From contig JAAFHZ010000003.1 of the NCBI GenBank assembly GCA_013297675.1, positions 33,790 to 97,789 of the forward strand: a DNA stretch of 64,000 nt. The letters are read 5' to 3'. This stretch comes from Synechococcales cyanobacterium bin59.metabat.ball.084. GTDB lineage: Bacteria; Cyanobacteriota; Cyanobacteriia; Cyanobacteriales; Chamaesiphonaceae. Below, in pieces: positions 49,085-64,000 of the stretch; within the stretch, counting starts at the first letter, position 1; every line of letters starts with the position of its first letter. Under the pieces are notes generated by a model, which saw only the letters and a list, made by a program, of their open reading frames with translations, was not told the origin of the DNA and ran no database searches. A program made the translations under genes and the position numbers.

Positions 49085-49797
49085 TTTGTTGAATGAGTAA
49101 GTAATTTAGGGATGTTTGAATCAATTAACTGATGAATCTTGGGTGGGTCAATCCTTTGGCTTTTTTGTAGGTTGATGATTTTGCGTAGTGAGGGGGAGGT
49201 TCGGAAGGGTTTCTTTATCCCGTTCTTGCAGAGAAAGAGTAACGGCAATTCCTTTACGTGTCATATATCTAAAGTGTACGGACACTAAATACTTTCACTC
49301 AGTATTTTAGCTGTTAATATGGGTTTAATGAAAGTTTCACATATAAAAAAACACAAACCTTTCTGGTGAACGTCATCAGAGAAATTGGGTGGAAACCCCG
49401 TCCTTTTAGGACGGCTTGATAGGAGTAACTGAAAGTTAGTGCGCTGTGAATTAAGCTTGACAGCTTTGGATCTGGTACGATGAATGTGGTCGTTGACCCA
49501 CCCGCGACAATGGAGACATAAAGCCTAACACCAAAGCTTGCCAGGACTCTGGCAACGGCGAGGAAAAATTGGTAGACCGGGAAAAGCTTGAGAGGCAATG
49601 GTAAACATCCTTAAAAGACATAGTTAAATTGTTCGATTGTTTTTAAAAACCGCAGGGCTTGCGGGGTTAGTCTGTGGAGCGAACGTAAGACCAAATCTCT
49701 TTCGAGAGTGGAGGCAGTTGCTATGAAGCAGAAAAGCCAGGAAGTGATTCTTGGAATCTTCGTGCGTTTACTCCGAGGAGGATGTCAATTGAACTCC
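49085..49797. mobile_element. IS200/IS605-type remnant between ferredoxin and cas3'
   Basis: No complete gene is present in 713 bp. A hairpin lies at 49398-49414 (CCGTCCT/AGGACGG, 3-nt loop), inside a sequence that looks like an IS200/IS605 end (GGAAACCCCGTCC). Further right is a short TnpB-like C-terminal remnant, listed separately. The insertion history probably removed or replaced the original cas3' promoter region. Confidence 0.45.
49655..49726 (+). pseudogene. tnpB: TnpB C-terminal remnant
   Basis: The frame at 49655-49726 reads GLAGLVCGANVRPNLFREW and then stops. GL...L.CG..VRP is the usual closing pattern of IS200/IS605-family TnpB proteins. Neighbouring frames continue with similar tail-like sequence, consistent with decay by frameshifts. 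The rest of tnpB is missing. Confidence 0.5.
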
Positions 49798-51972
49798 ATG
49801 AATTACTCAATCGACCTTAAAGCCATCTACTCCAGTCCGGCAGAAACCACACCTAAAAATCTGCGCTTGCCACTAGGGTGGTCATTAGGTTGGCATCAGG
49901 TTGCAACCTTAGAAGCTCTGCGCAACCCAGAGATTGATGTGGTGATAAATACTGCAATGACCGGGGATGGCAAAAGCTTGGCTGCTCAGCTTGAATTACT
50001 TCAAGGAGAATGCACGGCGATCGCGTTATATCCCACCAACGAGTTAGCCAGAGATCAAGAATCTCAGACTCGCCAATATATTGCTGATTTTCAGCCTCCT
50101 AACAATCCGCGCGTAACTAGGTTGAGTGGTGCAGACCTGGAAATTTATGCTGAACAGGAGGGTCTGCGTAAACAAGCCGCTATTGCTACTCGAACTGGTC
50201 AGTCAGAAATTTTACTGACCAACCCTGATATTTTTCACTTTTTACATCGTGGTGCTTATACCTTTGCAGGTGATAGCCCAGATAAGCTCTGGGGAAGAAT
50301 TGATAAGGATTTTGACCTATTTATTTTTGATGAGTTTCATATTTATGCTGCGCCTCAAGTTGCCAGTGTGATCAACACTATGTTGTTGATCAAAGCCACT
50401 AATTGTACCAAAAAGTTTTTATTTCTATCGGCCACACCAGATCTACAACTACTCGATCGACTAAAAAAAGCTGGGTTTCGCTGCCATGTCATTGATCCCA
50501 ATGCCCAGCAAAAGTATCGATTTCCTAGCCAAATTGCAGAGCAACAGCAGCTTAAAGAAGCCGGTTGGCGACAAGTAGCGCGACAGATCCGACTTAACTT
50601 TATATCTCTGGAGTCCAGTCCCAAAGCCTCAGAAGCATGGCTAAAAGAAAATGCTGAGCAGATTCTAGACCATTTTCAGCAGCACCCTGGTAGCAAAGGA
50701 GCCATAATTCTCAATTCAATCGTGGCTGTAAAGCGATTGATGCCTTTTTTCCAAGAGCTGTTTCGCCCGCATGGGTTATCGGTAGGGGAAAACACTGGTT
50801 TGTCTGGTAAGACCGAGCGGAATCGATCTTTGGATGCTGACTTGGTTTTAGGGACTAGCACGATCGATGTGGGGGTAGATTTTAAGATAAATTTCCTGAT
50901 ATTTGAATCTGCTGATGCCGGAAACTTTGTGCAGCGGTTGGGTAGATTGGGGCGGCATGATGGCTGGATACGTGATGGGGAAAAAGTTTTGTTTGATGGT
51001 TTTACGGCTTATGCTTTGATGCCTAACTTTTTACTGGAGCGGTTATTTTTAGGCGAAGATCCGCCATTGGTTGCTGGAGAAAGCTATGAGCGTCCTTTCT
51101 TTAATATTGCCATCAAAGAAAAGTATCGAGTGATCAATGATTTCAATGGCTATTACAAGCGTTGGGGTGCAGTACAGTCACTTAAACTCTGTCGTGACTT
51201 AAATAACAAAACGATTAAGCAGCAATATGCGGGCAGTGTTGAGGAGTTTCAGTCGGCTTGTGAGCTGGTGTTTGATACAAGTCTCAAACAGGTGGCTGGT
51301 CGAGTGCGGGGGTGGGCGCAAGATTGGCAGAAGTTATCTGGGCAAAAAGATGGGAATCCGATCGCCGAGGATGCTTGCAGTTTTCGAGGCTCTAGTGGTT
51401 TGCAGTGCGGTATTTATGATGAGACAGAATCTAATGAGGCTGATCGATATAAAACCTATGATTTGCCGGGGATTCTGGGCAATTTGGAGATTGAGCTGTG
51501 GACAGAGGCGGCGTTTATGAGGTCGATCGAGGCCACTGTTCAACGGACTGGGCAACCGATCGCAAAAGGGCGCTTTAAGCATTGCTTGGCTTTTATGAAG
51601 TTGAGGGCATATCGAGAAGAGCGGTTGAATTGGCAGTTGCAGTTTCCGGGCAAGCTGGAGCCGATTGCTGATGCTTGGCAGGTGCAGGTATTAAAGGGTT
51701 TGGAGGTTTGGCAGCCAAATAATCCTTGGGCAACCGAGATTAATAAAAAGCTTCGCAGTCAGGCGCTGGTGAGCTACGTGCTGAATCGTCCGGTGGCGGA
51801 GGTGCGCCAGCGATTGCGACTGCCGATGCACTTTCAGATTTACCCGATCGGTGACAGTTCCAGTTTTCATGAAGCTGCGACTTACTCGGTGGCTTTTGGC
51901 CAGAGTGCGCTGCTGTTGGATACTTTGGCTTATTGGCTCAAAGGCAAAGGAGGCGAAATATGGATCGCTTAG
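49798..51972 (+). CDS. cas3': Cas3' helicase, type I-D
   Basis: This 724-residue superfamily 2 helicase unwinds target DNA for the type I-D interference complex. Motif I is TAMTGDGKSLAAQ near residue 60, motif II is FIFDEFHIYA near 180, and motif VI is NFVQRLGRLGRHDG near 380. There is no HD nuclease domain, as expected for type I-D, where HD belongs to Cas10d. I chose the start MNYSID at 49798. The frame is open further upstream to an ATG at 49708, but that extension is TnpB debris. GAGGAGG at 49776-49782 may serve as ribosome site, with an in-frame TTG at 49789 as alternative start. Unlike the usual order, cas10d is 3 kb away. Confidence 0.92.
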   Translation: MNYSIDLKAIYSSPAETTPKNLRLPLGWSLGWHQVATLEALRNPEIDVVINTAMTGDGKSLAAQLELLQGECTAIALYPTNELARDQESQTRQYIADFQPPNNPRVTRLSGADLEIYAEQEGLRKQAAIATRTGQSEILLTNPDIFHFLHRGAYTFAGDSPDKLWGRIDKDFDLFIFDEFHIYAAPQVASVINTMLLIKATNCTKKFLFLSATPDLQLLDRLKKAGFRCHVIDPNAQQKYRFPSQIAEQQQLKEAGWRQVARQIRLNFISLESSPKASEAWLKENAEQILDHFQQHPGSKGAIILNSIVAVKRLMPFFQELFRPHGLSVGENTGLSGKTERNRSLDADLVLGTSTIDVGVDFKINFLIFESADAGNFVQRLGRLGRHDGWIRDGEKVLFDGFTAYALMPNFLLERLFLGEDPPLVAGESYERPFFNIAIKEKYRVINDFNGYYKRWGAVQSLKLCRDLNNKTIKQQYAGSVEEFQSACELVFDTSLKQVAGRVRGWAQDWQKLSGQKDGNPIAEDACSFRGSSGLQCGIYDETESNEADRYKTYDLPGILGNLEIELWTEAAFMRSIEATVQRTGQPIAKGRFKHCLAFMKLRAYREERLNWQLQFPGKLEPIADAWQVQVLKGLEVWQPNNPWATEINKKLRSQALVSYVLNRPVAEVRQRLRLPMHFQIYPIGDSSSFHEAATYSVAFGQSALLLDTLAYWLKGKGGEIWIA

Positions 51973-51993
51973 TTTCTATCCCTGATAGGGATT
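51972..51993 (-). repeat. Degenerate CRISPR repeat 2 (3'-hairpin side)
   Basis: It matches the repeat's last 22 nt with one change (ATAGAAAC for ATTGAAAC) and keeps the ATCCCT/AGGGAT stem. It starts at the last base of the cas3' stop codon. The repeat's first 15 nt are not recognisable. Confidence 0.8.
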
Positions 51994-52044
51994 TTACTAG
52001 GTTTACTAGTTGAGGGCATTATAATTCAAACATAAGAGAATGAA

Positions 52045-52068
52045 GTTTCAATCCCTAAAGTAAGGATT
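52045..52068 (-). repeat. Degenerate CRISPR repeat 1 (5'-handle side of the crRNA-like RNA)
   Basis: Its last 12 nt on the minus strand, AGGGATTGAAAC, are identical to the 3' end of the array repeat. The 5' side keeps AATCC, and the middle is changed. A Cas6 cut here would leave the normal 8-nt handle ATTGAAAC on the guide. Confidence 0.75.
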
Positions 52069-52074
52069 AAAAGG

Positions 52075-52105
52075 CTAATAACTGATGCCTTAGCCCTCAA
52101 GTCAA
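52075..52105 (-). promoter_or_regulatory. Candidate promoter of the crRNA-like RNA
   Basis: On the minus strand TTGACT (52105-52100) is followed after 18 nt by TTATTA (52081-52076), or after 19 nt by TATTAG. Transcription would start a few bases later, at the edge of the first degenerate repeat. The -35 is good and the -10 is poor. Confidence 0.4.
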
Positions 52106-52175
52106 AATTGTACAACAATCATAATGAAATCTCGTGGAACTTCTCGGTTTTCAAAAGAAAGAGCATTTTAAAATG

Positions 52176-52193
52176 GTCTTCATACTCTTATGT
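52176..52193 (+). promoter_or_regulatory. Predicted target site of the crRNA-like RNA: GTC PAM plus 15-nt seed match
   Basis: GTC at 52176-52178 is followed by TTCATACTCTTATGT (52179-52193). Compared with guide positions 1-15 the only difference is A for T at position 6. In type I effectors every sixth guide base is flipped out and need not pair. Complementarity stops after position 15, which fits binding without cleavage. The site overlaps the -35 region of the promoter at 52179-52209. Confidence 0.7.
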
Positions 52194-52209
52194 AAATTTC
52201 TGCTATAGT
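52179..52209 (+). promoter_or_regulatory. Candidate promoter reading towards the small ORF, parA-HEPN and cas10d
   Basis: An extended -10 (TGC then TATAGT at 52204-52209) has TTCATA at 52179-52184 as a weak -35 with 19-nt spacing. The array leader uses a similar extended -10 (TGC then TATATT at 63637-63642). A second AT-rich box, TATAAAAT, lies near 52237. Confidence 0.45.
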
Positions 52210-52306
52210 GTTCAAAGAGGTATCAACCACCAAAGGTATAAAATTCAGCCATGTTGTCTGGTAAATTCTTAACCTGACTTCACTTCAAGATAAAATACCC
52301 CAAAAA

Positions 52307-52567
52307 TTGATGCATAGTCCACTAGTATTTAAGGTCAAAGCCATGAAAGGAGTAATCCGTAAGCATTCATCTTCTACTCACCAAGTTATTTACTCTGAGG
52401 CTGATAAAAAATCTTCAGAGGACTTATTCTTCAAATCGGGTAAATTCTTTGCTGGACATTCAAGATTGTCTATAGGAACAATGATATCCATTGGGTTGTT
52501 TATTCTATTGATACAGCTTACTCAGCATGGAATCGCGATTACGCTATCTATCAATTCTTTGAGATGA
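52307..52567 (+). CDS. Small single-span membrane protein, unknown
   Basis: This 86-codon frame (or 74 codons from the ATG at 52343) has a basic, polar N-terminal half. A strong hydrophobic helix follows near the end (LSIGTMISIGLFILLIQL), then a short tail. I recognise no family. The helix region has a faint resemblance to Hli proteins (SRLSIGTM... against GRLAMLGF), which may be chance. It is the first frame after the promoter overlapped by the predicted crRNA-like target, so a small membrane toxin or regulator is possible. No clear ribosome site decides the start. Confidence 0.4.
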   Translation: MMHSPLVFKVKAMKGVIRKHSSSTHQVIYSEADKKSSEDLFFKSGKFFAGHSRLSIGTMISIGLFILLIQLTQHGIAITLSINSLR

Positions 52568-52620
52568 ATCTAAGGATAGCAACTTAAATCAGGACAAAAA
52601 CTCCAAAGATAGCATTGAAA

Positions 52621-52778
52621 GACCCTCATCCCCCAACCCCTTCTCCCAAGGCGGGAGAAGGGGAGCCGGAGCACAAAGCAAAGTCTCTTGTCTTAAGTCC
52701 TCTACTTGGGAAAACTCCAAGACCGGATTTTGCGCTTCCCCTTTCCCCTTGTGGGAAAGGGCTGGAGTGAGGGGGTCT
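52621..52778. repeat. Palindromic intergenic element, about 158 bp
   Basis: The left part (GACCCTCATCCCCCAACCCC, then CTCCCAAGGCGGGAG) and the right part (ending GGCTGGAGTGAGGGGGTC) are imperfect inverted copies. Each also contains its own small hairpin. This is the common cyanobacterial C-rich/G-rich palindromic repeat, probably a non-autonomous mobile or folded intergenic element. It separates the small ORF from the YhcG fragment. Confidence 0.7.
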
Positions 52779-52855
52779 CAATTTTTCCCAGCTTAAGTTG
52801 TTACCAGAATCTAAAACTAAAATGATGATCGGTGAATTGATTTTATTGGAGAAAT

Positions 52856-53275
52856 ATGAAAGTAGAAACTCTTCCAAATAAGACAGGTGGTCAAGTTTGC
52901 CTTATTGGTCGTCATTACCCCTTGAAAATAGGCAATCGTAGATTTCATATTAATGCACTTTTGTATCATCGGGGACTACGTTGCTTGATAGCTATCGAAA
53001 TAAAAAATGGCAAATTCAAACCAGAATATGTAGGGAAAATGCAATTTTATCTAGCAGCTTTAGATGATCTGGAAAGAGTAGAGGGTGAAAATCCTTCGAT
53101 CGGCATTATTCTTTGTAAATCAAAAGATCGGACTATCGTTGAATATACCTTGCGTGACTCCAATAGGCCGATCGGGGTTGCGACATATCAAAGTGTTTCC
53201 AATCTGCCAAAGGATTTATCTGGAAAGCTCCCCAGCCCCGAGCAAATTGCTAAACTACTAGACTACATTGAATAA
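52856..53275 (+). pseudogene. YhcG/DUF1016 nuclease C-terminal fragment
   Basis: These 139 residues match only the C-terminal PD-(D/E)xK nuclease part of YhcG (DUF1016) proteins, which are usually about 350 residues: ALLYHRGLRCLIAIEIKNGKFKPEYVGKMQFYLAALDD, then PSIGIILCKSKDRTIVEYTLRD and GVATYQ. The N-terminal DNA-binding part is missing. The catalytic Asp normally in the ID-LLFYH strand is Asn here (HINALLYH), while the E-I-K pair is kept. It does have a plausible start and ribosome site (GGAG before ATG), so a short product may be made, but nuclease activity is doubtful. Confidence 0.75.
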
Positions 53276-53307
53276 CTGCAAATTTTCCTTTATTTACCAG
53301 AGGTTTT

Positions 53308-54339
53308 ATGACCAAGAGAATAGTTTTTTTCAATCACAAAGGAGGTGTTAGTAAAACCACCTCTGTTTATAATATTGGCTGGATGCTGTCAAAAGAGCAC
53401 AACGTTTTAGTCGTAGATGCTGATCCACAATGCAATTTATCCAGCTTAATTTTAGGGGAAGGTTTTGATCAGTACTATACAAATGAATCTACCAAACATC
53501 AAAATATTAAAGATGGTGTCCAGGTAGCATTTACTGGTAAGCCATTCCCAATTAAAGCCGTGGACTGTTTTTCACCCACAAGGGCTACTTCCCTGCATTT
53601 ACTTGCTGGGCACCCCAACTTATCGGAATATGATGCAGCATTAACATTTGCACAGAATTCTAATAACGCTATTACAACATTACAAAATTTACCAGGCGCT
53701 TTTTCTGAACTAATTAAGCTTACCGAAGAAAAGTATGATATTGAGTATACTTTGATAGATTTGAACCCTGGGCTAAGTGCAATTAATCAAAATTTGTTTT
53801 TATCGGCTCATGCTTTTATTCTGCCCACCAATCCAGATCCATTTTCTATTATGGCAATTGATGCTCTCAAGAATATTTTACCAAAATGGGTTGCATGGAA
53901 AAAGAATTCTATTCAAATCTTTGATGATACAGCATATCCATTATTACCAGGAGAGCCTAAATTTATTGGCACATTAATTCAGCGATTCAATATTCGGAAT
54001 GGAAAGGCTGCAAAACCATATAGAGACAATATTGCTGAAATCAAAAGTAAGATCAGAGAAGATTTCTTTGATTCTATTTCTCAGTCTGGTATGACATTGA
54101 ATCATGAACAATACAAAGAAACATTTGTTGAAAATGGTTACTGCCTCAGTGAAATACCGGATTTTCAAGGACTATTACCAAAATCTTATGATGTAGGAGT
54201 ACCTGTCTTTGATTTGTCAGATAGTGAAATCAATGAAAGTGGGTTCGTTTTAACTGGACTAATCAACAAAAGGAATGAGTTCAATAAACAGTTTGAAGTT
54301 TTAAATGGGCAGATTATCAACTTATTAAGCTATGCGTAA
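53308..54339 (+). CDS. ParA/MinD-like ATPase
   Basis: This 343-residue ParA-type protein has a deviant Walker A (NHKGGVSKTT near residue 10), VVDADPQCNLSSL for the second motif, and TLIDLNPGLSAIN for Walker B. It is longer than plasmid-partition ParA, with an extra C-terminal region (residues 200-343). No ParB gene or centromere-like repeats are nearby. Its last 8 bp overlap the HEPN gene, so the two are made together, which suggests a two-component defence or toxin-type module and not partition. The gene looks clearly more AT-rich than the cas genes on either side. Confidence 0.85.
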   Translation: MTKRIVFFNHKGGVSKTTSVYNIGWMLSKEHNVLVVDADPQCNLSSLILGEGFDQYYTNESTKHQNIKDGVQVAFTGKPFPIKAVDCFSPTRATSLHLLAGHPNLSEYDAALTFAQNSNNAITTLQNLPGAFSELIKLTEEKYDIEYTLIDLNPGLSAINQNLFLSAHAFILPTNPDPFSIMAIDALKNILPKWVAWKKNSIQIFDDTAYPLLPGEPKFIGTLIQRFNIRNGKAAKPYRDNIAEIKSKIREDFFDSISQSGMTLNHEQYKETFVENGYCLSEIPDFQGLLPKSYDVGVPVFDLSDSEINESGFVLTGLINKRNEFNKQFEVLNGQIINLLSYA

Positions 54340-54940
54340 TTCACTAAATCTTTTTAGGTCAAATATTACAGAAGCACGTAATTTGACTGCGCTTTATGAT
54401 TACCTAGAGGTCTCGATGAAATCTCCGTTATCCTTTGACGATTTATTACGATCGCAGATTGTCTATTCTGTCAGTGCCTTTGACAAGCTGATTCATGACA
54501 TTATCCGTATTGGCATGGTAGAGATCTTTGTCGGGAGAAGATTACCAACTCCTGCATACCTAGCCGAATCAATATCAATTTCAATTCATAATGAATTAAT
54601 TACAGCTACGATTCCTCCTCCAGCATATATATTTGAACAAGCAATTTTTCGCAAGCTTAAAACTGTCTCCTATCAAGAGCCAGGTAAAATAGCAGAGGGA
54701 TTAAGCTACATATGGGAAGAGAAACAAAAATGGCAAAAGATTTCTGCTGAAATTGGTCTAAATGATAAAGATGTCAAAACACAACTGAAGTTAATTGCCA
54801 ATAGAAGAAATACAATTGTTCATGAATCTGATATTGATATATCATCGAATTCCAAATATCCGATCGACAAAAATGATTGCAAAGCTATTACAGACTTTCT
54901 GGAACAATGTGGAGAAGCTATTGTTAGCTTAATAATTTAA
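54332..54940 (+). CDS. HEPN-domain protein (RiboL-PSP-HEPN/MAE_28990-like)
   Basis: This 202-residue helical protein has a HEPN ribonuclease signature near its C-terminus (NRRNTIVHESDI, an R-x4-H motif). The N-terminal half (YDYLEVSMKSPLSFDDLLRSQIVYSVSAFDKLIHD) matches the layout of the MAE_28990/RiboL-PSP-HEPN family. Such proteins are candidate RNases in toxin and defence systems. It overlaps the parA-like gene by 8 bp and ends 60 bp before cas10d, so read-through into cas10d is likely. The R-x4-H residues look intact. Confidence 0.8.
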   Translation: MRNSLNLFRSNITEARNLTALYDYLEVSMKSPLSFDDLLRSQIVYSVSAFDKLIHDIIRIGMVEIFVGRRLPTPAYLAESISISIHNELITATIPPPAYIFEQAIFRKLKTVSYQEPGKIAEGLSYIWEEKQKWQKISAEIGLNDKDVKTQLKLIANRRNTIVHESDIDISSNSKYPIDKNDCKAITDFLEQCGEAIVSLII

Positions 54941-55000
54941 GTGCAATTTCAGCCGATCTATGGCGCATCAGTAAACCAATTAAAATATTGATTAAATATC

Positions 55001-58000
55001 ATGAGTGATGATCTAGATTATTTAGAAGACGATGATTTGGGATTGGAGACAGCAGCCGATCGCTCTCTACCCACTGTAAAACGTGAGCTACTGACCCTCA
55101 AGTTACTGCGTAACGCCATTCAGTCCCAGCATCCCAATGATGCAGTGATGCAAGACTTCGCCGAATATGTATTACCAAATCTGCTGCGCTTGGCGATCGG
55201 GGTAACAGCCAAAGGCGGTAACTTCTTTGATGAACTAGACCAAAAAAATGCGGCTGCTGGCAAAGCCCCAGTCCGCAGAGACAATGCCGCTGACCAATCA
55301 CTAAGTACCCATCTACTTAATGGTTTGTTTCCAGCTAACTTGATCGAGCAGCGACTGGAATTACTGGATACCACCATTCAGCGAGAAGTAACGAATTATC
55401 CTTTGCGACGACGGTTATTGATAGCTGGATTTATTCTGCATGATTTTGAAAAATTCAAGTATGACTATTTCCATAGAATCTCCCAAAAATACAAAGATCT
55501 CCAAAACGACAAAGACGAGCAGATCCGAGATCTATCGATCGCCGAGCATCGAGAAATTTTGATCCCTATTGTCACGGAACTACAGCTCGATCGATTCATA
55601 TCCCCTGATGATCCAGAAGCGTGGATTGAATACATTGACGACCTGCTCTGCTTGGCTTACAACGCCCAACGGCGCTGGGGCACCAACTGGAATTTTTCGA
55701 GCTTTGATGGTCTGAATCCTAAACTCAAAGATCGAGTGCTGGGCTGCTTGGCAGACCTAACTTGTTTAGCAGATTCTCTGGCTTCGATCGTCAAACATCC
55801 CTACGATGCCGAAAACTATCGATTGAATGATTATCTGGGTAGACTCAGCGATCGACAGCTTAAGTTTACGTATCACAGCATCTCTGAAAACAGGGGAGTG
55901 TTGACCAACGTAGTAAATAATGCGCTGGTAGATGCCCACACCAGCCTCAATATACCAGAGTGCAAATATTATGAGCCACTGTTGTACTTACCTACAGGAG
56001 TGATTTACATAGCCCTCAAAGATGCTCCAACCATCGATCCAGCCAGCCTACCAGAACGAGTCGTAAACAGTATCAAAGAACTTTGTGCTGGACAACTTAG
56101 CCAGCGGCAGACCGGTTTTGGCCGGGATGGTAAGGGTATGAAATATGCTGATTACTATAATTTGTTTTTCACTGATGTTGAACTAATGAAAGTGGCTTTA
56201 GATGCTACTTTACGGATTCTGCGTGACGGCAAGGATTCGGTTGCCGGTAGTCGTAGCGAAAACCTAGTGAAGTTCCAGCAGCAGAATGTATTGCCTAGTA
56301 ACTATGATTTTAAATTTGCTGACGACTTGCGGATCGATCGAATCGCAGAATTTGGGGATGTGATCAGTCGCAAAATCTGGGGTGAGCGATTGCTGAAGAT
56401 TGAATCTCTACGCAAACAAGATAAAAAGCTAGCAGCACCAGCAGAACTGGAGTTGATTCACAAAGTAGCTGAGTTTTGGGGACTGAAAGACTGCTCTCCA
56501 GCCATCCGCGAAATTCAGCAAATTAATGAATCGCTAAAATCCCTGAAAATCAAAGGGAATACTGGTGGTGTGCCTTATGAGTGGTACTATCTGGCTGCTC
56601 AATATTTAAAACAACATCCCGGCATCGAAAGCGTTCGGGAGACAGGTTTACAAGCCATCGAATATGTGGCCGGATTAATTCAGCCCATCGTTGATCGATA
56701 TCCAATGGCTGATGGCTGGGATGATATTCGGCAGTGGTGCGATCGGGTGGTGATGTTGCCTGGAGGTCAATTTTCTGGCGATAATGCGGATATTTTCCTG
56801 AAAGAATTATCCAATTACAACAATGCTAAAAAAGCTGGGCGGGGGAGACAGCTAATTTGCTCGATTTCCCACTCCGCTTATACCGTCACCGAACAGATGG
56901 AATCCGCTGTCCTGTTCACTCCCCAGGTTTATACCAATAAGCAAATGCTGAATGGTTCTAATGCCAAACGCAATATTTCTAGTATTGCTGGCATTGAGAT
57001 GATGCTGCGGCAAATTTTAATGAACCAGACCCAAGCCGTAGGCAAACGTTTTGAAGATAGTAAGTATCGCTACTTATATTTTTACCCCACCTATTACTTC
57101 ACCCCCGAAACCAATAAATTCTTACAGCAAGCCTACAGTGGTATTGCTCAAACCCGCTTCGACACTAGCATTCGCAATCATTTCATTACCAAGGAGTTAG
57201 ATGCAGATTTTGGCCGTGGTCAATATCAAAGCGTCGATGCTTTTTTAATTGATGATGATTTGGCCAGATGTAAAGCACTAGATGAAGATGATGACGACTA
57301 TAAACGCGATACGGGAGTACCCGTCCGGCGGGATCGAACCTTCAAGCTGTCTTACCCTGACGATAAACCACTAACCTTCTACTTCATGGCACTGCCACCG
57401 GGCAAAGACCCCACTGATACAGAGTCTTGGATTATGCCAGCTTGGTTAGCCCTAGCTTTTCCGATGATCTTAGATGTGAAAACAGTGGTTTCAGAATCAC
57501 CAATTCCACCATTTAACGACGGTGCCGAGTTTGAGGAAAGCGTCTTTATTGATAGTGCTCCCCAAGCTCTGCGTACCTTGCTGGGTAAAGATCGCTTTCG
57601 GCTTGATCATATTTTATCAAGCTGGAAAACTCCCAATGGCATTAGCCGAGCGGCTCCTTTGAATACTCTGACTGCGGCCTATGCCATTCATCTGGATGTC
57701 AATGCCAAGCAGAGTAAAAGTGGCTATGACCCCAACTGGGGCAAGCTTACAGAGCTAGCTAAAGACCTGGATACGAGTCCTTTGTACGTCTGTTTTTACC
57801 TCATTAAGTGGGCACGCGGACAAAAGACTGAGGTGCCCGGAACGAAAAAAATGAAGCTATATATTCATTGTTTCTATCCTTGCTTTGACCCTTATGTTGA
57901 ATTCGACCCTCAACTGGAAACCTTAATTGTGAAAGACCCTGAGAAATCCCCCATGCATCATCCTCAAAGATTAACCGAGTTGTATCGTAAGTTTTATCGT

Positions 58001-58429
58001 GCTAAACAGCGCTATAACCCTAAGGCTAATGCCGTATTGAAGCCCATTGATATTGCTGCTGATACTTTACTGAAGGCTGACTTTGCGGCTTTTCATGGTG
58101 AAACCTTAGTCATGACTGTGGCCGCTGAAATCTGTAAATTGATGGATCGGGTGAGAAGTGCCAACGCTGACGGTCGCTGGATTATCACTGGTCGTGATGA
58201 GGAAAGATTAGCCGTAGTTGAGTTTGCTAAATACTTTGTGGTGGAGGTATTCGAGAATACTTTTGCTGGCGATCGAGCGCGGTTAGCTGGCCGTCAACTT
58301 AATCTGTTGCGAGACACTTGTGAACTACTCTACCGATTAGAAAATGATCGAGAGAATAAAGAGTATGAAGCTAATAAGAAGCCCGGAGAAGCTGTCAAGC
58401 CAGAGGAGGATGAGGAAGATGAAATATAA
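55001..58429 (+). CDS. cas10d: Cas10d, type I-D large subunit with N-terminal HD nuclease
   Basis: This 1142-residue protein is the signature large subunit of type I-D effectors. An HD-type motif (LLIAGFILHDFEKFKYDYF) lies near residue 145, consistent with the Cas3'' nuclease being fused here. The centre is the diverged Cas10 palm region, with no GGDD cyclase motif that I can see. The C-terminus is very acidic (PEEDEEDEI). The C-terminal 150 or so residues form the helical small-subunit-like domain, often also made separately (see 57953). It is followed by csc2 after about 65 bp. Confidence 0.93.
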   Translation: MSDDLDYLEDDDLGLETAADRSLPTVKRELLTLKLLRNAIQSQHPNDAVMQDFAEYVLPNLLRLAIGVTAKGGNFFDELDQKNAAAGKAPVRRDNAADQSLSTHLLNGLFPANLIEQRLELLDTTIQREVTNYPLRRRLLIAGFILHDFEKFKYDYFHRISQKYKDLQNDKDEQIRDLSIAEHREILIPIVTELQLDRFISPDDPEAWIEYIDDLLCLAYNAQRRWGTNWNFSSFDGLNPKLKDRVLGCLADLTCLADSLASIVKHPYDAENYRLNDYLGRLSDRQLKFTYHSISENRGVLTNVVNNALVDAHTSLNIPECKYYEPLLYLPTGVIYIALKDAPTIDPASLPERVVNSIKELCAGQLSQRQTGFGRDGKGMKYADYYNLFFTDVELMKVALDATLRILRDGKDSVAGSRSENLVKFQQQNVLPSNYDFKFADDLRIDRIAEFGDVISRKIWGERLLKIESLRKQDKKLAAPAELELIHKVAEFWGLKDCSPAIREIQQINESLKSLKIKGNTGGVPYEWYYLAAQYLKQHPGIESVRETGLQAIEYVAGLIQPIVDRYPMADGWDDIRQWCDRVVMLPGGQFSGDNADIFLKELSNYNNAKKAGRGRQLICSISHSAYTVTEQMESAVLFTPQVYTNKQMLNGSNAKRNISSIAGIEMMLRQILMNQTQAVGKRFEDSKYRYLYFYPTYYFTPETNKFLQQAYSGIAQTRFDTSIRNHFITKELDADFGRGQYQSVDAFLIDDDLARCKALDEDDDDYKRDTGVPVRRDRTFKLSYPDDKPLTFYFMALPPGKDPTDTESWIMPAWLALAFPMILDVKTVVSESPIPPFNDGAEFEESVFIDSAPQALRTLLGKDRFRLDHILSSWKTPNGISRAAPLNTLTAAYAIHLDVNAKQSKSGYDPNWGKLTELAKDLDTSPLYVCFYLIKWARGQKTEVPGTKKMKLYIHCFYPCFDPYVEFDPQLETLIVKDPEKSPMHHPQRLTELYRKFYRAKQRYNPKANAVLKPIDIAADTLLKADFAAFHGETLVMTVAAEICKLMDRVRSANADGRWIITGRDEERLAVVEFAKYFVVEVFENTFAGDRARLAGRQLNLLRDTCELLYRLENDRENKEYEANKKPGEAVKPEEDEEDEI
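57953..58429 (+). CDS. cas11d: Candidate internal start for the Cas11d small subunit
   Basis: In known type I-D systems the small subunit is translated from an internal start near the 3' end of cas10d. An in-frame ATG at 57953 (MHHPQRLTELYRK) would give a 158-residue helical protein of suitable size. The upstream ribosome site is weak (GAGAAA). Another in-frame ATG lies at 57851 (MKLYIHCF). The choice is tentative. Confidence 0.35.
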   Translation: MHHPQRLTELYRKFYRAKQRYNPKANAVLKPIDIAADTLLKADFAAFHGETLVMTVAAEICKLMDRVRSANADGRWIITGRDEERLAVVEFAKYFVVEVFENTFAGDRARLAGRQLNLLRDTCELLYRLENDRENKEYEANKKPGEAVKPEEDEEDEI

Positions 58430-58494
58430 CTAGAGCAAATATCCAAACTTCCCAACCATTGACACAATATCTACATTTTTTCAGGAGAACTAAA

Positions 58495-59502
58495 ATGACC
58501 ATTCTTAAATCGATCGACAGCACCAAACTATTTCACAGCGAAATCCCTTACAAGCCAATGGGCAAGTATGTTCATTTTCTGACTATGCGTATTACCGAGT
58601 CTTACCCTCTGTTTCAAACCGATAGTGAGCTGAACAAAGCACGAGTCAGCGCTGGAATTGTTGATAAGACTCCGATTAGTCGGCTAGCAATGTTCAAACG
58701 GAAGCAATCTACACCTGAACGCTTAGTTGGACGTGAGTTACTACGCAACTATGGATTGATGACTGCGAAAGAATGTGAGTATAATGTCAGCTTCGCAATG
58801 AATAACCCAGATTGTATTATTTACGGCTTTGCGATCGGTGATTCTGGCTCAGAGAAATCTAAAGTAGTAGTAGATACTGCTTTTTCGATTAACTCCTTTG
58901 ATGCAACTCATGAAACATTTACTCTAAATGCCCCTTTTGAACATGGCACTATGAGCGAAAAAGGATCGGTCACTAGCCGCATTAATCAGCAAGACCACAT
59001 CAAACCCCAGGTGTTTTTCCCAAGTATTGTTACCCTCAAAGATCCCACCGAAGCTAATTTCTTGTACGTGTTCAACAATATTTTGAGAACCAGACACTAT
59101 GGGGCACAGACTACCCGTACAGGCCGAGTACGTAATGAATTGATAGGGGTCATTTTTGCTGATGGCGAAATTGTGAGTAATTTACGCTGGACTCAGGCAA
59201 TTTACGACGTGATGAAAGAGAGCCATAACTTTGACTCTACCGATCCGCTCAACGAAGAATCAGTTTTGACTGCGGCCACCAGCACCATAGAGGCTCTCAT
59301 GACCAAAGAATTTATTGTGCATACAGATTTGTTAGGCGCAAAATTCACTCCGCTATTAGATGAAGTTAAAACTTTATTGGGGAATGAAGACAGCTTGAAG
59401 CAAGTTTTACAGCAAGCTGACCAAGAAGCTAAAGTATATTTCAAGGCTCATATTGAAAAGCCGAAGAAAGCCGACAAAGATAAAGAAAAAGCTGCTAAAT
59501 AG
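58495..59502 (+). CDS. csc2: Csc2 (Cas7d), type I-D backbone subunit
   Basis: This 335-residue protein forms the backbone along the crRNA. I chose the start MTILKSIDS at 58495, which has a good AGGAG site. The frame is open to 58459. Family features include FLTMRITESYPLFQTDSELNKARV, RLAMFKRKQSTPERLVGRELLRNYGL and LRTRHYGAQTTRTGRVRNEL. The Lys-rich tail is typical. It lies 9 bp before csc1. Confidence 0.92.
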   Translation: MTILKSIDSTKLFHSEIPYKPMGKYVHFLTMRITESYPLFQTDSELNKARVSAGIVDKTPISRLAMFKRKQSTPERLVGRELLRNYGLMTAKECEYNVSFAMNNPDCIIYGFAIGDSGSEKSKVVVDTAFSINSFDATHETFTLNAPFEHGTMSEKGSVTSRINQQDHIKPQVFFPSIVTLKDPTEANFLYVFNNILRTRHYGAQTTRTGRVRNELIGVIFADGEIVSNLRWTQAIYDVMKESHNFDSTDPLNEESVLTAATSTIEALMTKEFIVHTDLLGAKFTPLLDEVKTLLGNEDSLKQVLQQADQEAKVYFKAHIEKPKKADKDKEKAAK

Positions 59503-59511
59503 GTAATTTGT

Positions 59512-60225
59512 ATGACCCACATTTACCATTGCTCGATCGAACTACATGACAGCCTTTATTACGCCACCCGCGAAATCGGTCGGCTGTATGAGACTGAACC
59601 TATCTTGCATAACTACGCCCTCTGCTATGCCCTGGGCTTAGTAGATAGCGATCGCTATGCCACCCGTGTCTCAGAAGAGCATGAGTATCGTTACTTTTGC
59701 CCAGAGCAAGTACCTAAATATGAGGAACACCTCACCCCGCTCAACCAGCAGGGTATTTACGTCACACCAGCTAAAGCCATCCGTCATAGCGCAGTGTTGC
59801 ATACCTGGAAATATGCTAACAACCATTACCATGTGGAAATGGGAAAAACTCAGAAAAACATTCCCAGCTTTGGCCGTGCCAAAGAGATTGCGGCAGAAAG
59901 CCAATTCGAGTGCTTCGTTATTGTCAATCAGCCAATTGAATTACCAAAGTGGATTCGACTTGGTAAATGGATGAGTAAAGCCGTTCTAACTGTTAGTGAG
60001 CCATTAAAGTTCGATCGATATACTAGCGACTTTATCTGTGAACATCCTCTTAACCCCCTAGATGTGATGTTTACACAGCAAGTAGTTAGCTATGACACCT
60101 TAAACATGCCTCCAGTTAGCTTGATTCGGAACGTGCGATTTCTAAATGGGTCACACTATCGCTGCAAGTTAGGGACGGCAACCTTTAACCTGCCAGCTAA
60201 TATGCAATACCGTTTTAGCGGATAA
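59512..60225 (+). CDS. csc1: Csc1 (Cas5d-type), type I-D subunit
   Basis: This 237-residue protein caps the 5' end of the crRNA complex. It opens with IYHCSIELHDSLYYATREIGRLYETEPILHNYALCYALG, the recognisable Csc1 N-terminus, and contains GRAKEIAAESQFECFVI. It is the last gene of the first effector block. The usual next gene, cas6, is separated by a convergent insertion of about 540 bp. Confidence 0.9.
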   Translation: MTHIYHCSIELHDSLYYATREIGRLYETEPILHNYALCYALGLVDSDRYATRVSEEHEYRYFCPEQVPKYEEHLTPLNQQGIYVTPAKAIRHSAVLHTWKYANNHYHVEMGKTQKNIPSFGRAKEIAAESQFECFVIVNQPIELPKWIRLGKWMSKAVLTVSEPLKFDRYTSDFICEHPLNPLDVMFTQQVVSYDTLNMPPVSLIRNVRFLNGSHYRCKLGTATFNLPANMQYRFSG

Positions 60226-60485: not shown

Positions 60486-60685
60486 CACAAAAACCTCCAA
60501 TTTCCATTCTGTTCAATTATAACTTCGGTTTCAACTCCTGCCAAAATAACCAATTTCTTATCACGCTCATCTAGTCTGACCAGATAGACAGGAATATAAA
60601 AGCTCGTCAAATCCAGACAAACCCGGACACAGCTCATGCATTGCTCGACTGTAGGCAAAACGGACTTACTCTCAAAGTGATACAA
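60485..60685 (-). CDS. DUF6888-like small protein
   Basis: This 66-residue protein has LPTVEQCMSCVRVCLDLTSFYIPVYLVRLDERDKKLVILAG near its start and closes with NGNWRFL, the DUF6888 pattern. It overlaps the DUF6887-like gene by 4 bp and is transcribed first. Its promoter must lie near 60685-60764, facing away from the start of cas6. Function is unknown. Confidence 0.72.
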   Translation of the reverse strand: MYHFESKSVLPTVEQCMSCVRVCLDLTSFYIPVYLVRLDERDKKLVILAGVETEVIIEQNGNWRFL

Positions 60686-60763
60686 CGTCCCAAATTTAAC
60701 ATATGTTCAGGTCTATTCAATAGCAATGCCTTTACAAACAGCAACTTTACCCTGAATTTTCTT

Positions 60764-61573
60764 ATGCCACATAGTTTAGTTCTAAATTTAACGCCGATCG
60801 CCCCTATCCAACCCGGATACCTGAGCGGCAAACACGTCCACGCTCTATTTCTAACCATCATCAACTCCGTAGACCCGGCACTCGCTACCCGTCTTCACGA
60901 ACAAACTACCGATAAAGCCTTTACCCTCAGCCCGATTCAAACCGGCAGACCCGACAAAGTGCGCTGGCAACACGATCGAGCAATTCCCGCTGAAACCCCT
61001 TGTTGGTGGCGAATTTCATTATTAGATGATGCTCTTTTTGGCCACTTAACCCCCCTCTGGCTGAACCTAAACCCCAAACATTCTTGGCACTTAGGAGCCG
61101 CTGACTTGCGGATCACCAGCGTGCTGGGCACCCCCCAACCACGTCAGCCCTGGGCAAACTTTGCCAGCTATGGGCAGCTCTATGAAGAAGCCAGCGATCG
61201 AACCCACATCGATTTGATTTTTGCCACTCCTACCGCTTTTCGTCAACAAAACTTCGATACTTCTCTACCCAGTCGAGACTTGGTATTCAAAAGCTGGCTG
61301 AAAAAATGGAACCAATATAGCGGCATAGAATTTGACCCAGCCATTTTAGAATGTATTTTTCCTAGCTACTTCAATATTTACACCGAGATCGTGGAAGACT
61401 CTCGCAGCAAATTTATTGGTTATCTAGGTGAGATGACCTTTAGAATTATGGGCAAGATAGAACCAGAAGTAATTAAACAAATTAATACCCTGGCGGATTT
61501 TGCTCTCTATGCTGGCACCGGGCGCAAAACACCAATGGGCATGGGAATGACTAGAAGACACTATGGAAAATGA
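60764..61573 (+). CDS. cas6: Cas6 crRNA-processing endonuclease
   Basis: This 269-residue RAMP nuclease cuts the array transcript at each repeat to leave the ATTGAAAC handle. It begins MPHSLVLNLTPIAPIQPGYLSGKHVHALFL and ends with a Gly-rich loop, LYAGTGRKTPMGMGMTRR. I chose the Met at 60764. The frame is open to 60641 but that part has no family match. Cas4 overlaps its end by 11 bp. Because of the antisense pair upstream, cas6 onwards probably has its own promoter. Confidence 0.9.
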   Translation: MPHSLVLNLTPIAPIQPGYLSGKHVHALFLTIINSVDPALATRLHEQTTDKAFTLSPIQTGRPDKVRWQHDRAIPAETPCWWRISLLDDALFGHLTPLWLNLNPKHSWHLGAADLRITSVLGTPQPRQPWANFASYGQLYEEASDRTHIDLIFATPTAFRQQNFDTSLPSRDLVFKSWLKKWNQYSGIEFDPAILECIFPSYFNIYTEIVEDSRSKFIGYLGEMTFRIMGKIEPEVIKQINTLADFALYAGTGRKTPMGMGMTRRHYGK

Positions 61574-62150
61574 TTACATCCCGATCGCTGCACTGAATCA
61601 ATATAGCTACTGCCCCCACCGCTGTTGGCGGATGTTCTGTGCTGGGGAGTTTGTTGATAACCAATACACGATCGAGGGCACTGGTTTACACGAGCGGGTG
61701 CATACCGTAGGCGATGGTAATCAGGGTGAAACCTATCAGGTGCGGGCTATTTGGCTAAAGTCTGACCGCTATGGTTTGGTGGGGAAATCGGACTTAATTG
61801 AAGAGATGGATGGTTGTTGGTATCCGATCGAATACAAGAGAGGCAACCGGGGTGAATATGATAATGACGAGTTGCAGGTCTGCGCTCAGGCGCTGTGCTT
61901 GGAGGAAATGACCGGGCAGGAAATTAGGCAAGGATACATTTACTATGCTCATTCGCACCAGCGGGTGCTGGTAGAAATTGATGAGCCGTTACGACAGATG
62001 GCGATCGAGACTATTGCTGCGGTGACGAATTTGTTGACGACGGGCAAGATGCCAACTCCACGCTATTCGCCCCGCTGTAAGGGCTGTAGTTTGGTAGAAC
62101 ACTGTTTGCCGAAGGCAGTGGAAAAAGTAGGCAAATATCGGGAAGACTAG
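61563..62150 (+). CDS. cas4: Cas4 exonuclease for spacer acquisition
   Basis: This 195-residue PD-(D/E)xK nuclease with an iron-sulphur cluster trims prespacers and helps select the PAM. Cluster Cys residues are in the early SYCPHRCW and the late SPRCKGCSLVEHC. The nuclease motif is GLVGKSDLIEE and YPIEYKRGN, with QVCAQALCLEE as the QhxxY-like segment. Length is normal. It overlaps cas6 and lies 26 bp before cas1. Confidence 0.92.
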   Translation: MENDYIPIAALNQYSYCPHRCWRMFCAGEFVDNQYTIEGTGLHERVHTVGDGNQGETYQVRAIWLKSDRYGLVGKSDLIEEMDGCWYPIEYKRGNRGEYDNDELQVCAQALCLEEMTGQEIRQGYIYYAHSHQRVLVEIDEPLRQMAIETIAAVTNLLTTGKMPTPRYSPRCKGCSLVEHCLPKAVEKVGKYRED

Positions 62151-62176
62151 ACCTATCACAAAACGAGGAATCGATC

Positions 62177-63184
62177 GTGGGAACTTTGTATATCATGCAA
62201 GATGATGCCTTCATTGGCAAAATCGATGAGCGGCTGAAGGTGACTCACGAGCATCAGGTGTTGCAAGATGTGCCGCTGATTAAACTTGATGGGGTAGTGG
62301 TGATGGGCAGAGCGACAGTTTCGCCAGCGGCTTTGATGGAGCTACTAGAGCGCAAGATTCCGCTGACTTTTCTACACAAGACCGGGCGGTATTTGGGTAG
62401 CTTGGAGGCTCCACTGGGCAAAAATATTTTCATTCGATCGGCACAGTGGTCAGCAGCCAAGGGCGATGAAGAGAAGGTACTGCATGTGGTGCGGGGTTTT
62501 ATTCGGGGAAAGCTGAAGAATTATCGCAACAGTTTACTGCGGGCGCAGCGCGAAAATGAGGGTTTGGATTTAGGGAAGGCGGTGGAGCTAATTAGAGATT
62601 CGATCGATGCCCTGCCCACCACGATGAATGTGGATTCTTTGCGAGGTTTGGAGGGATTAGGAAGTGCGGCGTATTTTGGTTGTTTCGATCGGCTGCTGAG
62701 AAATCCAGATTTTGAGTTCAAAAGTCGTAACCGCCGTCCGCCGCTAGACCCGGTGAATGCGCTGTTGAGTTTTGGTTATGCTTTGCTGTTGCATGATGTG
62801 CAGAGCGCGGTGAATATTGCGGGGTTTGACCCTTATTTGGGTTATTTGCATGTGGAACGCTATGGTCGTCCATCTTTGGCATTAGATTTGATGGAAGAGT
62901 TTCGGCCATTGGTGGTGGATGCGATCGTATTGACGGCTATCAACAGGAAATTGTTGACGTTGGATGATTTCACGACGGAGCCAGTGAGTGGGGCGGTATC
63001 GTTATCAGATGAGGGTCGAAAGACTTTTTTGCGGCTGTATGAACAGAAAAAGCAGTCGGAGTTTAAGCATCCGGTAATGGAGAAGAAGTGCAGCTATCAG
63101 AAAGCTTTTTTGATTCAGGCGCGGCTATTGGGTAAGTATTTGATGGCTGAGACGGAGCTGTATCCGCCATTGGTGTTGAAATGA
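62177..63184 (+). CDS. cas1: Cas1 integrase
   Basis: This 335-residue integrase inserts new spacers. It starts with GTG at 62177 (GTLYIMQDDAFIGK). The catalytic metal ligands fall in RGLEGLGSAAYF (Glu), YLHVERYGRPSLALDLMEEFRP (His, then Asp or Glu). The sequence is full length and intact. Its stop overlaps the cas2 start by 4 bp. Confidence 0.95.
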   Translation: MGTLYIMQDDAFIGKIDERLKVTHEHQVLQDVPLIKLDGVVVMGRATVSPAALMELLERKIPLTFLHKTGRYLGSLEAPLGKNIFIRSAQWSAAKGDEEKVLHVVRGFIRGKLKNYRNSLLRAQRENEGLDLGKAVELIRDSIDALPTTMNVDSLRGLEGLGSAAYFGCFDRLLRNPDFEFKSRNRRPPLDPVNALLSFGYALLLHDVQSAVNIAGFDPYLGYLHVERYGRPSLALDLMEEFRPLVVDAIVLTAINRKLLTLDDFTTEPVSGAVSLSDEGRKTFLRLYEQKKQSEFKHPVMEKKCSYQKAFLIQARLLGKYLMAETELYPPLVLK

Positions 63185-63712: not shown

Positions 63713-64000
63713 GCAACAACACCACCGAATCCCTATCAGGGATTGAAACTTAATTACAGTGCCTCTACGCCCATTCCGTTGCTTAGCAACAACACCACCG
63801 AATCCCTATCAGGGATTGAAACTTTTTGAGTCGGAGATTTTACCGATGGCGGCAATTAATTGCAACAACACCACCGAATCCCTATCAGGGATTGAAACGT
63901 CTAACAGATTTCCGCAGGCAATACATACAGAAACCGGGCAACAACACCACCGAATCCCTATCAGGGATTGAAACAAAACCCCAACAGCGTGAAGTTTCCG
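63713..64000 (+). CRISPR. Type I-D CRISPR array, start; four repeats visible, open at right edge
   Basis: Four identical 37-nt repeats stand at 63713-63749, 63786-63822, 63862-63898 and 63938-63974. Each begins GCAACAACACCACC and ends AGGGATTGAAAC, and contains the palindrome ATCCCTATCAGGGAT. Spacers are 36, 39 and 39 nt, and a fourth runs off the window. Identical repeats and an adjacent leader mark this as the young, leader-proximal end. The crRNA direction is plus, giving the handle ATTGAAAC. Confidence 0.97.

Follow-up and report, generated by a model that had tools for sequence, protein, structure and literature searches.

Several small RNAs are known by which a clustered regularly interspaced short palindromic repeats (CRISPR) system regulates genes of its own host. 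Cas-regulating RNAs (CreR) are produced from mini-CRISPRs, as cited in PMC13131331, PMC12948488 and PMC12737573 (original description: Liu et al. 2023, Cell Host Microbe), and in the passages cited here they are named for I-B, I-E and V-A (PMC13131331) or for type I and V-A (PMC12737573). We have analysed a 64,000-nucleotide (nt) stretch of Synechococcales cyanobacterium bin59.metabat.ball.084 (contig JAAFHZ010000003.1, positions 33,790 to 97,789), hereafter called the window, which holds a type I-D CRISPR locus with a mini-array of two repeats just past the stop codon of cas3'. This element is probably best explained as a CreR-type RNA by which the I-D effector would repress its own operon. 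No I-D example of CreR was found in the literature searched, a scope outside which the survey in the original CreR paper lies, and the new point would be a I-D CreR-like RNA whose operon is predicted usually to start with an exchangeable small protein.

The locus has in common with CreR, as described in the sources cited above, two degenerate repeats, a CRISPR RNA (crRNA)-like RNA and limited seed complementarity to a promoter of the cas locus, but it differs in its subtype, in the multiple sites of many loci and in the small gene past the promoter that is exchanged together with the guide. With CreTA, the type VIII toxin–antitoxin system (PMC8501985, PMC9458426), it shares the two psi-repeats, of which psiR1 is the more degenerate, the seed rule of positions 1–5 and 7–11, the linkage of the RNA to the repressed gene and the variability of the partner; according to these sources CreT toxins are RNAs, whereas the partners found here are conserved open reading frames (ORFs) predicted to be protein-coding. 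In CrePA (PMC12737573), as here, a protein gene stands under a CRISPR-guided repressor RNA, CreP being the toxin and CreA the RNA, but CreP is described there as typically carrying a KilA-N domain. The I-D system of Synechocystis 6803 has the same effector genes and GTN protospacer-adjacent motif (PAM), but is reported to be controlled by the repressor Sll7009, a WYL protein (PMC10212523). By its mechanism the element would thus be like CreR, and in being inherited together with a partner gene it is similar to CreTA and CrePA as well.

In the window the two repeats lie on the minus strand. The first, psiR1 (52045-52081), has a degenerate upstream half and is identical to the array repeat at 16 of 37 positions, and its 8-nt handle is intact (ATTGAAAC, 52045-52052); the second, psiR2 (51972-52008), is identical at 24 of 37. 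Their 3' ends, at 52045 and 51972, are 73 nt apart, and they enclose a spacer-like guide of 36 nt (52009-52044, minus strand) of the predicted crRNA-like RNA, forming a crRNA-like unit between two repeat-like elements outside the array. When the core of the array repeat was searched genome-wide, allowing at most 2 mismatches, it was found only in array-like runs and in psiR2. The original prediction had described this arrangement correctly, including the intact hairpin of psiR2, except that the hairpin is not confined to that repeat: psiR1 folds too (-10.1 kcal/mol). The guide matches 14 of 15 positions of a target on the plus strand (52179-52193) at a distance of 135 nt; the sole mismatch is at position 6 and the site stands behind a GTC PAM (52176-52178, plus strand), both as had been stated. 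The further statement that guide and target lie on the same strand side did not stand, since the minus strand encodes the guide whereas the protospacer letters are read on the plus strand; the target lies upstream of the mini-array in the mini-array's own direction of transcription. A second operator was not found in the window. Markov-1 simulation of the 258-nt intergenic stretch, on both strands and with a GT PAM required, reached a 14/15 match in 0 of 60,000, in 2 of 200,000 and at least once in 20,000 trials in three runs, and the chance of the match in the window is about 1 in 100,000.

We then compared the element across related loci. Sixty relatives were searched at the DNA level; 14 gave matches, which indicated by eye that psiR2 beside the cas3' stop recurs, and a family search placed cas3' in 211 of 388 genomes from the order. 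From these we sampled 148 of the 150 places among the matches listed (omitting the window's own and one at a contig end) and added four stretches from plasmids and 26 from named genomes, which with the window gave 179. The 131 stretches whose Cas3' scored above 500 bits against that of the window were kept, the other 48, among them a second I-D gene order, being left out; removal of seven exact duplicates and four loci with too little sequence left 120 unique loci, window included. A handle was accepted when antisense to cas3' and within 260 nt of its stop, and because its pattern was fixed, repeats with other handles were missed. An antisense handle or mini-array was present in 83 of the 120 loci. 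When the first handle was taken blindly, 67 of the 83 loci had a GT-flanked site that agreed with the locus's own guide at 8 or more of the 10 seed positions, and 61 had one that agreed at 9 or more; unrelated guides swapped in (n=4796) reached these levels in 0.85% and 0.06%, respectively, and shuffled guides reached the lower one in 1.4%. With every handle counted, 69 loci have a site on the plus strand. The handles of these 69 are ATTGAAAC in 31, ATTGAAAT in 21, ATTGAAAA in 13 and ACTGAAAT in 4, and a repeat stem is found at the place of psiR2 in 58 and at that of psiR1 in 66. The distinct natural guide seeds number 36. The culturable strains Picosynechococcus PCC 7117 (L173) and Anabaena sp. 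90 (L171) are among the carriers. In the comparison of related cyanobacteria that the original prediction had called for, changes in the guide are thus accompanied by changes in the target in dozens of I-D loci.

These counts bear on the view that the mini-array is a decayed remnant of an ordinary array, which resembles the promoter by chance or duplication. Degenerate repeats are what array remnants have, and nine of the 83 loci keep a handle without any site; nevertheless, place and orientation are fixed at the cas3' stop, seed matches are far above those of swapped guides, and neither the PAM, the 6-nt periodicity of pairing nor the concerted swaps described below are features of such a remnant. 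We consider it very improbable, and on the basis of guide swaps, shuffles and simulation we have rejected both the array-remnant and the chance readings.

The pattern of the predicted pairing is that of a type I crRNA. Even when the best sites were sought with no PAM required, GTT, GTC or GTA preceded 67 of 72, and GTN is the I-D PAM reported for Synechocystis (PMC10212523). According to the same source, pairing is required throughout the seed apart from position 6, every sixth base being flipped out, and for CreA in a I-B system positions 1–5 and 7–11 were shown by mutation to be needed (PMC8501985). Across our loci pairing occurs at positions 1–5, 7–11 and 13–16: the match rates are 0.26 at position 6 and 0.29 at position 12, which are at chance level, 0.64–0.81 at positions 13–16 and 0.13–0.43 at positions 17–24, positions 12 onwards having played no part in the selection of sites. 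Between near-identical guides, the target follows 247 of 280 seed differences, a count made on pairs of shared ancestry and on sites selected for their match. Taken together, co-variation, type I pairing and the I-D PAM support the reading as a CreR/CreA-type RNA in a I-D system, and the pairing rule would fit a repressing guide, not a cutting one. The target of one locus (L249) is one base short where guide position 6 would lie, and the rest of it agrees with the guide up to about position 18, a pattern that deletion of the flipped base would leave.

Judged from the loci themselves rather than from phage genomes, it is most unlikely, even more so than a decayed remnant, that the spacer is aimed at phage or plasmid DNA and matches the host incidentally. 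An RNA of that kind would be loaded in the normal effector just as the predicted one, but the match is on average lost past position 16, and the plus-strand sites are confined to 69-191 nt from the handle within a search that reached 450 nt, which is too regular for accident.

The repressed promoter is a prediction at several levels. In the window, a candidate extended -10 (TGC-TATAGT, 52201-52209, plus strand) with a poor -35 stands just past the target, in agreement with the promoter at 52204 that had been proposed; that promoter had been said to read into the cas10d side, and the genes next to it are a small ORF and three cargo genes, not cas10d. A sigma-70 scan of the window listed promoter-like sites no commoner than in shuffles (10 vs 11.1) and did not list the 52204 promoter, and we rely on the cross-locus occurrence of the extended -10: TGnTAnnnT follows the target in 28 of 69 loci vs 5% in shuffles, mostly 31–32 nt past the PAM (28 nt in the window), and a -35 of the TTGACn or TTGnCA type with a spaced TnnnnT is found in 17 of 69 loci vs 1.5% in shuffles. 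Thus the loci have seed-only complementarity beside a PAM within a predicted promoter, as in CreR. For the mini-array itself, a predicted -10 (TACAAT, 52107-52112, minus strand) was read from the sequence; in the relatives a minus-strand extended -10 alone occurs in 36 of 69 vs 19% in shuffles, most 57–75 nt from the handle, and consensus -35/-10 pairs give a weak signal (13 of 69 vs 6%). At least two sites were found in 24 of the 83 loci, one of which (L105) is doubtful; those of the GAATA class have tandem sites 25–32 nt apart, and those of the AAATA class have sites on opposite strands. The upstream site of several GAATA-class loci overlaps a minus-strand TTGAC, and therefore the mini-array RNA may additionally repress its own promoter.

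Starting from the mini-array, PAM, seed match and co-variation described above, and from a gene order on one strand from target to cas10d, we propose the following mechanism for CreR-type control. The two-repeat mini-array past cas3' would be transcribed on the minus strand from the promoter near 52107, and Cas6 would process the transcript to an RNA with the 8-nt handle. A complex of Cas10d, Csc2 and Csc1 would bind this crRNA-like regulatory RNA, be guided by it to the promoter that precedes cas10d and block transcription there without cutting, because pairing of about 15 nt covering the region of the -35 and spacer is presumably not long enough for cleavage to be triggered. Repression would lift if little effector were present, if ordinary crRNAs occupied it or if phage proteins inhibited it, and the operon, comprising the small protein, the cargo and the genes from cas10d onwards, would be expressed.

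What follows the target most regularly is a small ORF. The interval from cas3' to cas10d contains an ORF of one of four mutually unrelated families (I–IV) in 64 of the 69 loci with a target vs 17 of the 51 without; when the loci used for building the four family profiles (37 target-bearing loci) are excluded, the numbers are 27 of 32 vs 17 of 51 (Fisher 5e-6). In the 64 loci the start of the ORF ranges from 62 nt ahead of the PAM to 300 nt past it, and each of 32 seeds is tied to no more than one family. This close association is what would be expected if, much as in CreTA or CrePA, the RNA were chiefly an antitoxin acting on the first small gene, loss or inhibition of the effector releasing a growth-stopping protein and the expression of Cas10d being secondary; we regard such a guard function as rather unlikely, and the properties of the families speak on both sides of it. 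Family I (about 65 amino acids, aa) is a predicted winged helix and looks more like a regulator; its model has a predicted local distance difference test (pLDDT) score of 82.5, its best PDB match an E value of 0.047 with winged-helix regulators and ribosomal proteins mixed, and the family occurs in 68 of 388 genomes, in some away from a window-like cas3'. Family II (about 63 aa, range 60–65) is unannotated and its model is disordered (pLDDT 66), and the motifs QxxLF and QLELxL are kept in all 30 aligned homologues (of 133 matches). These two motifs are suggestively like the sliding-clamp-binding consensus, given as QL[S/D]LF or QxxLF (PMC12309361), and a clamp-targeting toxin has been described (PMC12795458), which favours a guard. 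By coordinate comparison, 13 of the 14 genomes (of 388) with family II profile matches have them within about 3 kb of a I-D cas3'. Family III (80–110 aa) is coiled-coil-like by eye, and family IV has about 105 aa.

The median ratios of non-synonymous to synonymous substitution rates (dN/dS) are 0.11 for family I (16 pairs), 0.51 for family II (6 pairs) and 0.29 for family III (14 pairs), and by dN/dS and homology the partners of families I–III look protein-coding, although an RNA toxin may exist beside them; family II is weakly constrained, with dN/dS as high as 0.99 in one pair, which weighs against a guard. So does the scan of nine small ORFs, among which no KilA-N or known toxin family was found and nothing exceeded the Pfam or NCBIfam cut-offs; the best matches below threshold, all from the L173 row, were HTH_91 (3e-4), HTH_39 (2e-3) and a PHROG of unknown function (1.5e-4). 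In the window, the first ORF past the target (52310-52567, plus strand) encodes 85 aa with one hydrophobic stretch; two metagenomic homologues of equal length are 95% and 87% identical, and the 387 other genomes gave only two marginal matches. Its coding status is poorly supported and is the weakest part of this analysis.

Exchange of the small gene together with guide and target is a further point in favour of a guard. A tree of 115 Cas3' proteins made by a quick method requires no fewer than 43 changes of guide seed and 32 of small-ORF family. In pairs such as L205/L206 (Cas3' 96.1% identical) and L101/L104 (94.5%), guides, targets and small ORFs differ, each set being internally matched, and in swaps between loci with 91–97% identical Cas3' guide and target stay matched; the pairs, in sets of eight and twelve, were chosen by eye from the tree. 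In seven of eight pairs DNA homology ends no more than 27 nt from the cas3' stop (96 nt in L097/L185), and it resumes at the cargo or at cas10d. Because matched sets are swapped while flanking homology ends and resumes around them, guide, predicted operator and small gene are exchanged as one unit, cas3' and cas10d staying in place. The left border of exchange lies inside or beside psiR2 in seven of the eight pairs (L205/L206, L091/L092, L101/L104 and others), and therefore this repeat may act as a recombination border.

For the CreR-type reading, continuity from the target to cas10d matters. A non-overlapping set of ORFs of at least 100 aa between target and cas10d, chosen in order of decreasing length, comprised 98 in 68 loci; all 98 are on the plus strand and face cas10d, and in the window there is no terminator-like site on the plus strand from 52204 to 55100. 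Several observations weigh against this reading. In the window cas10d lies 2.8 kb past the target, and control of the cas genes rests on inferred read-through for that reason. Where no more than 700 nt separate the end of the small ORF from cas10d, 20 of 21 loci have no terminator-like site in that interval, which says little because the strict test expects only 0.05 by chance. Judged by consensus, both promoters, that at 52204 and that on the minus strand, are weak, and 37 of the 120 loci have no recognised handle. Loci that keep the repeats without the match, which the original prediction had named as counter-evidence, do occur: they are the nine without a site, and in five more of the 83 the only sites are on the other strand. 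In Synechocystis 6803, the model I-D system, the cas3'-cas10d gap is 13 nt and leaves no room for the element. What the RNA would repress is therefore less settled than had been claimed, and control of the CreR type and of the CreTA/CrePA type both fit, because the row led by the promoter usually starts with an exchangeable small protein and later includes cas10d.

A second I-D gene order is informative here. In L276, csc2-csc1-cas3'-cas6-cas4-cas1 lie downstream, and positions 1417-1900 hold a mini-array, a matching site on the minus strand and a family I ORF directly before a cas10d-like frame (named by eye). Of eight short stretches surrounding family I ORFs that lie apart from the window-like cas3', two (L274 and L276) contain a matched mini-array and six do not. 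In both of these loci (L274 on the reverse strand), a matching GTT/GTC site and a winged-helix ORF stand directly before cas10d, and cas3' follows csc1.

All cas genes and the array of the window locus are on the plus strand. The helicase gene cas3' (49708-51972, 754 aa; NCBIfam TIGR03158, 5.3e-120) has its stop codon adjoining psiR2. After the 85-aa ORF come three cargo genes, namely a YhcG-type PDDEXK nuclease domain shorter than its relatives (52856-53275; Pfam PF06250), a ParA-like ATPase (53308-54339; PF13614) and a RiboL-PSP-HEPN protein (54332-54940; PF18735). They are followed by cas10d/csc3 (55001-58429; TIGR03174), cas7d/csc2 (58459-59502; TIGR03157), cas5d/csc1 (59512-60225; TIGR03159), cas6, the predicted processing enzyme (60641-61573; TIGR01877), and cas4 and cas1 (61563-63184; TIGR00372 and Pfam PF01867), with a cas2-sized ORF named from its position alone, and then by the start of the ordinary array (63713-64000), four 37-nt repeats of which are inside the window. 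Cas10d/Csc3, Csc2, Csc1 and a separate Cas3' all score above the cut-offs of the NCBIfam models, which assigns the locus to type I-D. The PDDEXK gene of the window belongs to the largest cargo cluster, 23 of the 98 ORFs (label from Pfam); others we take, by eye, to be nucleotidyltransferase-like (22), HEPN-like (20) and PIN-like (7). The gap before cas10d (52856-54940 in the window) appears in other loci too to gather HEPN-like, nucleotidyltransferase-like, PIN-like and PDDEXK genes directed toward cas10d. The contig that holds the window has runs of the array repeat at both ends (1-920 and 97518-97789).

Finally, we consider what the element would mean. We tentatively consider it possible, though not probable, that guide, operator and small effector protein form an exchangeable cassette, located between the end of cas3' and cas10d, in which the CRISPR complex silences the protein, and that guard proteins are freed when phages disable the complex, with Cas production also raised; the proteins could then comprise, with the same reserve, a double sliding-clamp binder, winged helices, coiled coils and, in the window, a small membrane protein. 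These cassettes name at least four unannotated protein families predicted to be kept silent by a CRISPR complex. Type I-D has been adapted for genome editing in human and plant cells (PMC10212523), and 36 natural guide seeds reveal which positions matter for pairing. The reading preferred here, a CreR-type RNA, would extend RNA-guided self-control of CRISPR to type I-D, and the way in which I-D loci register their load or an inhibition becomes directly testable.

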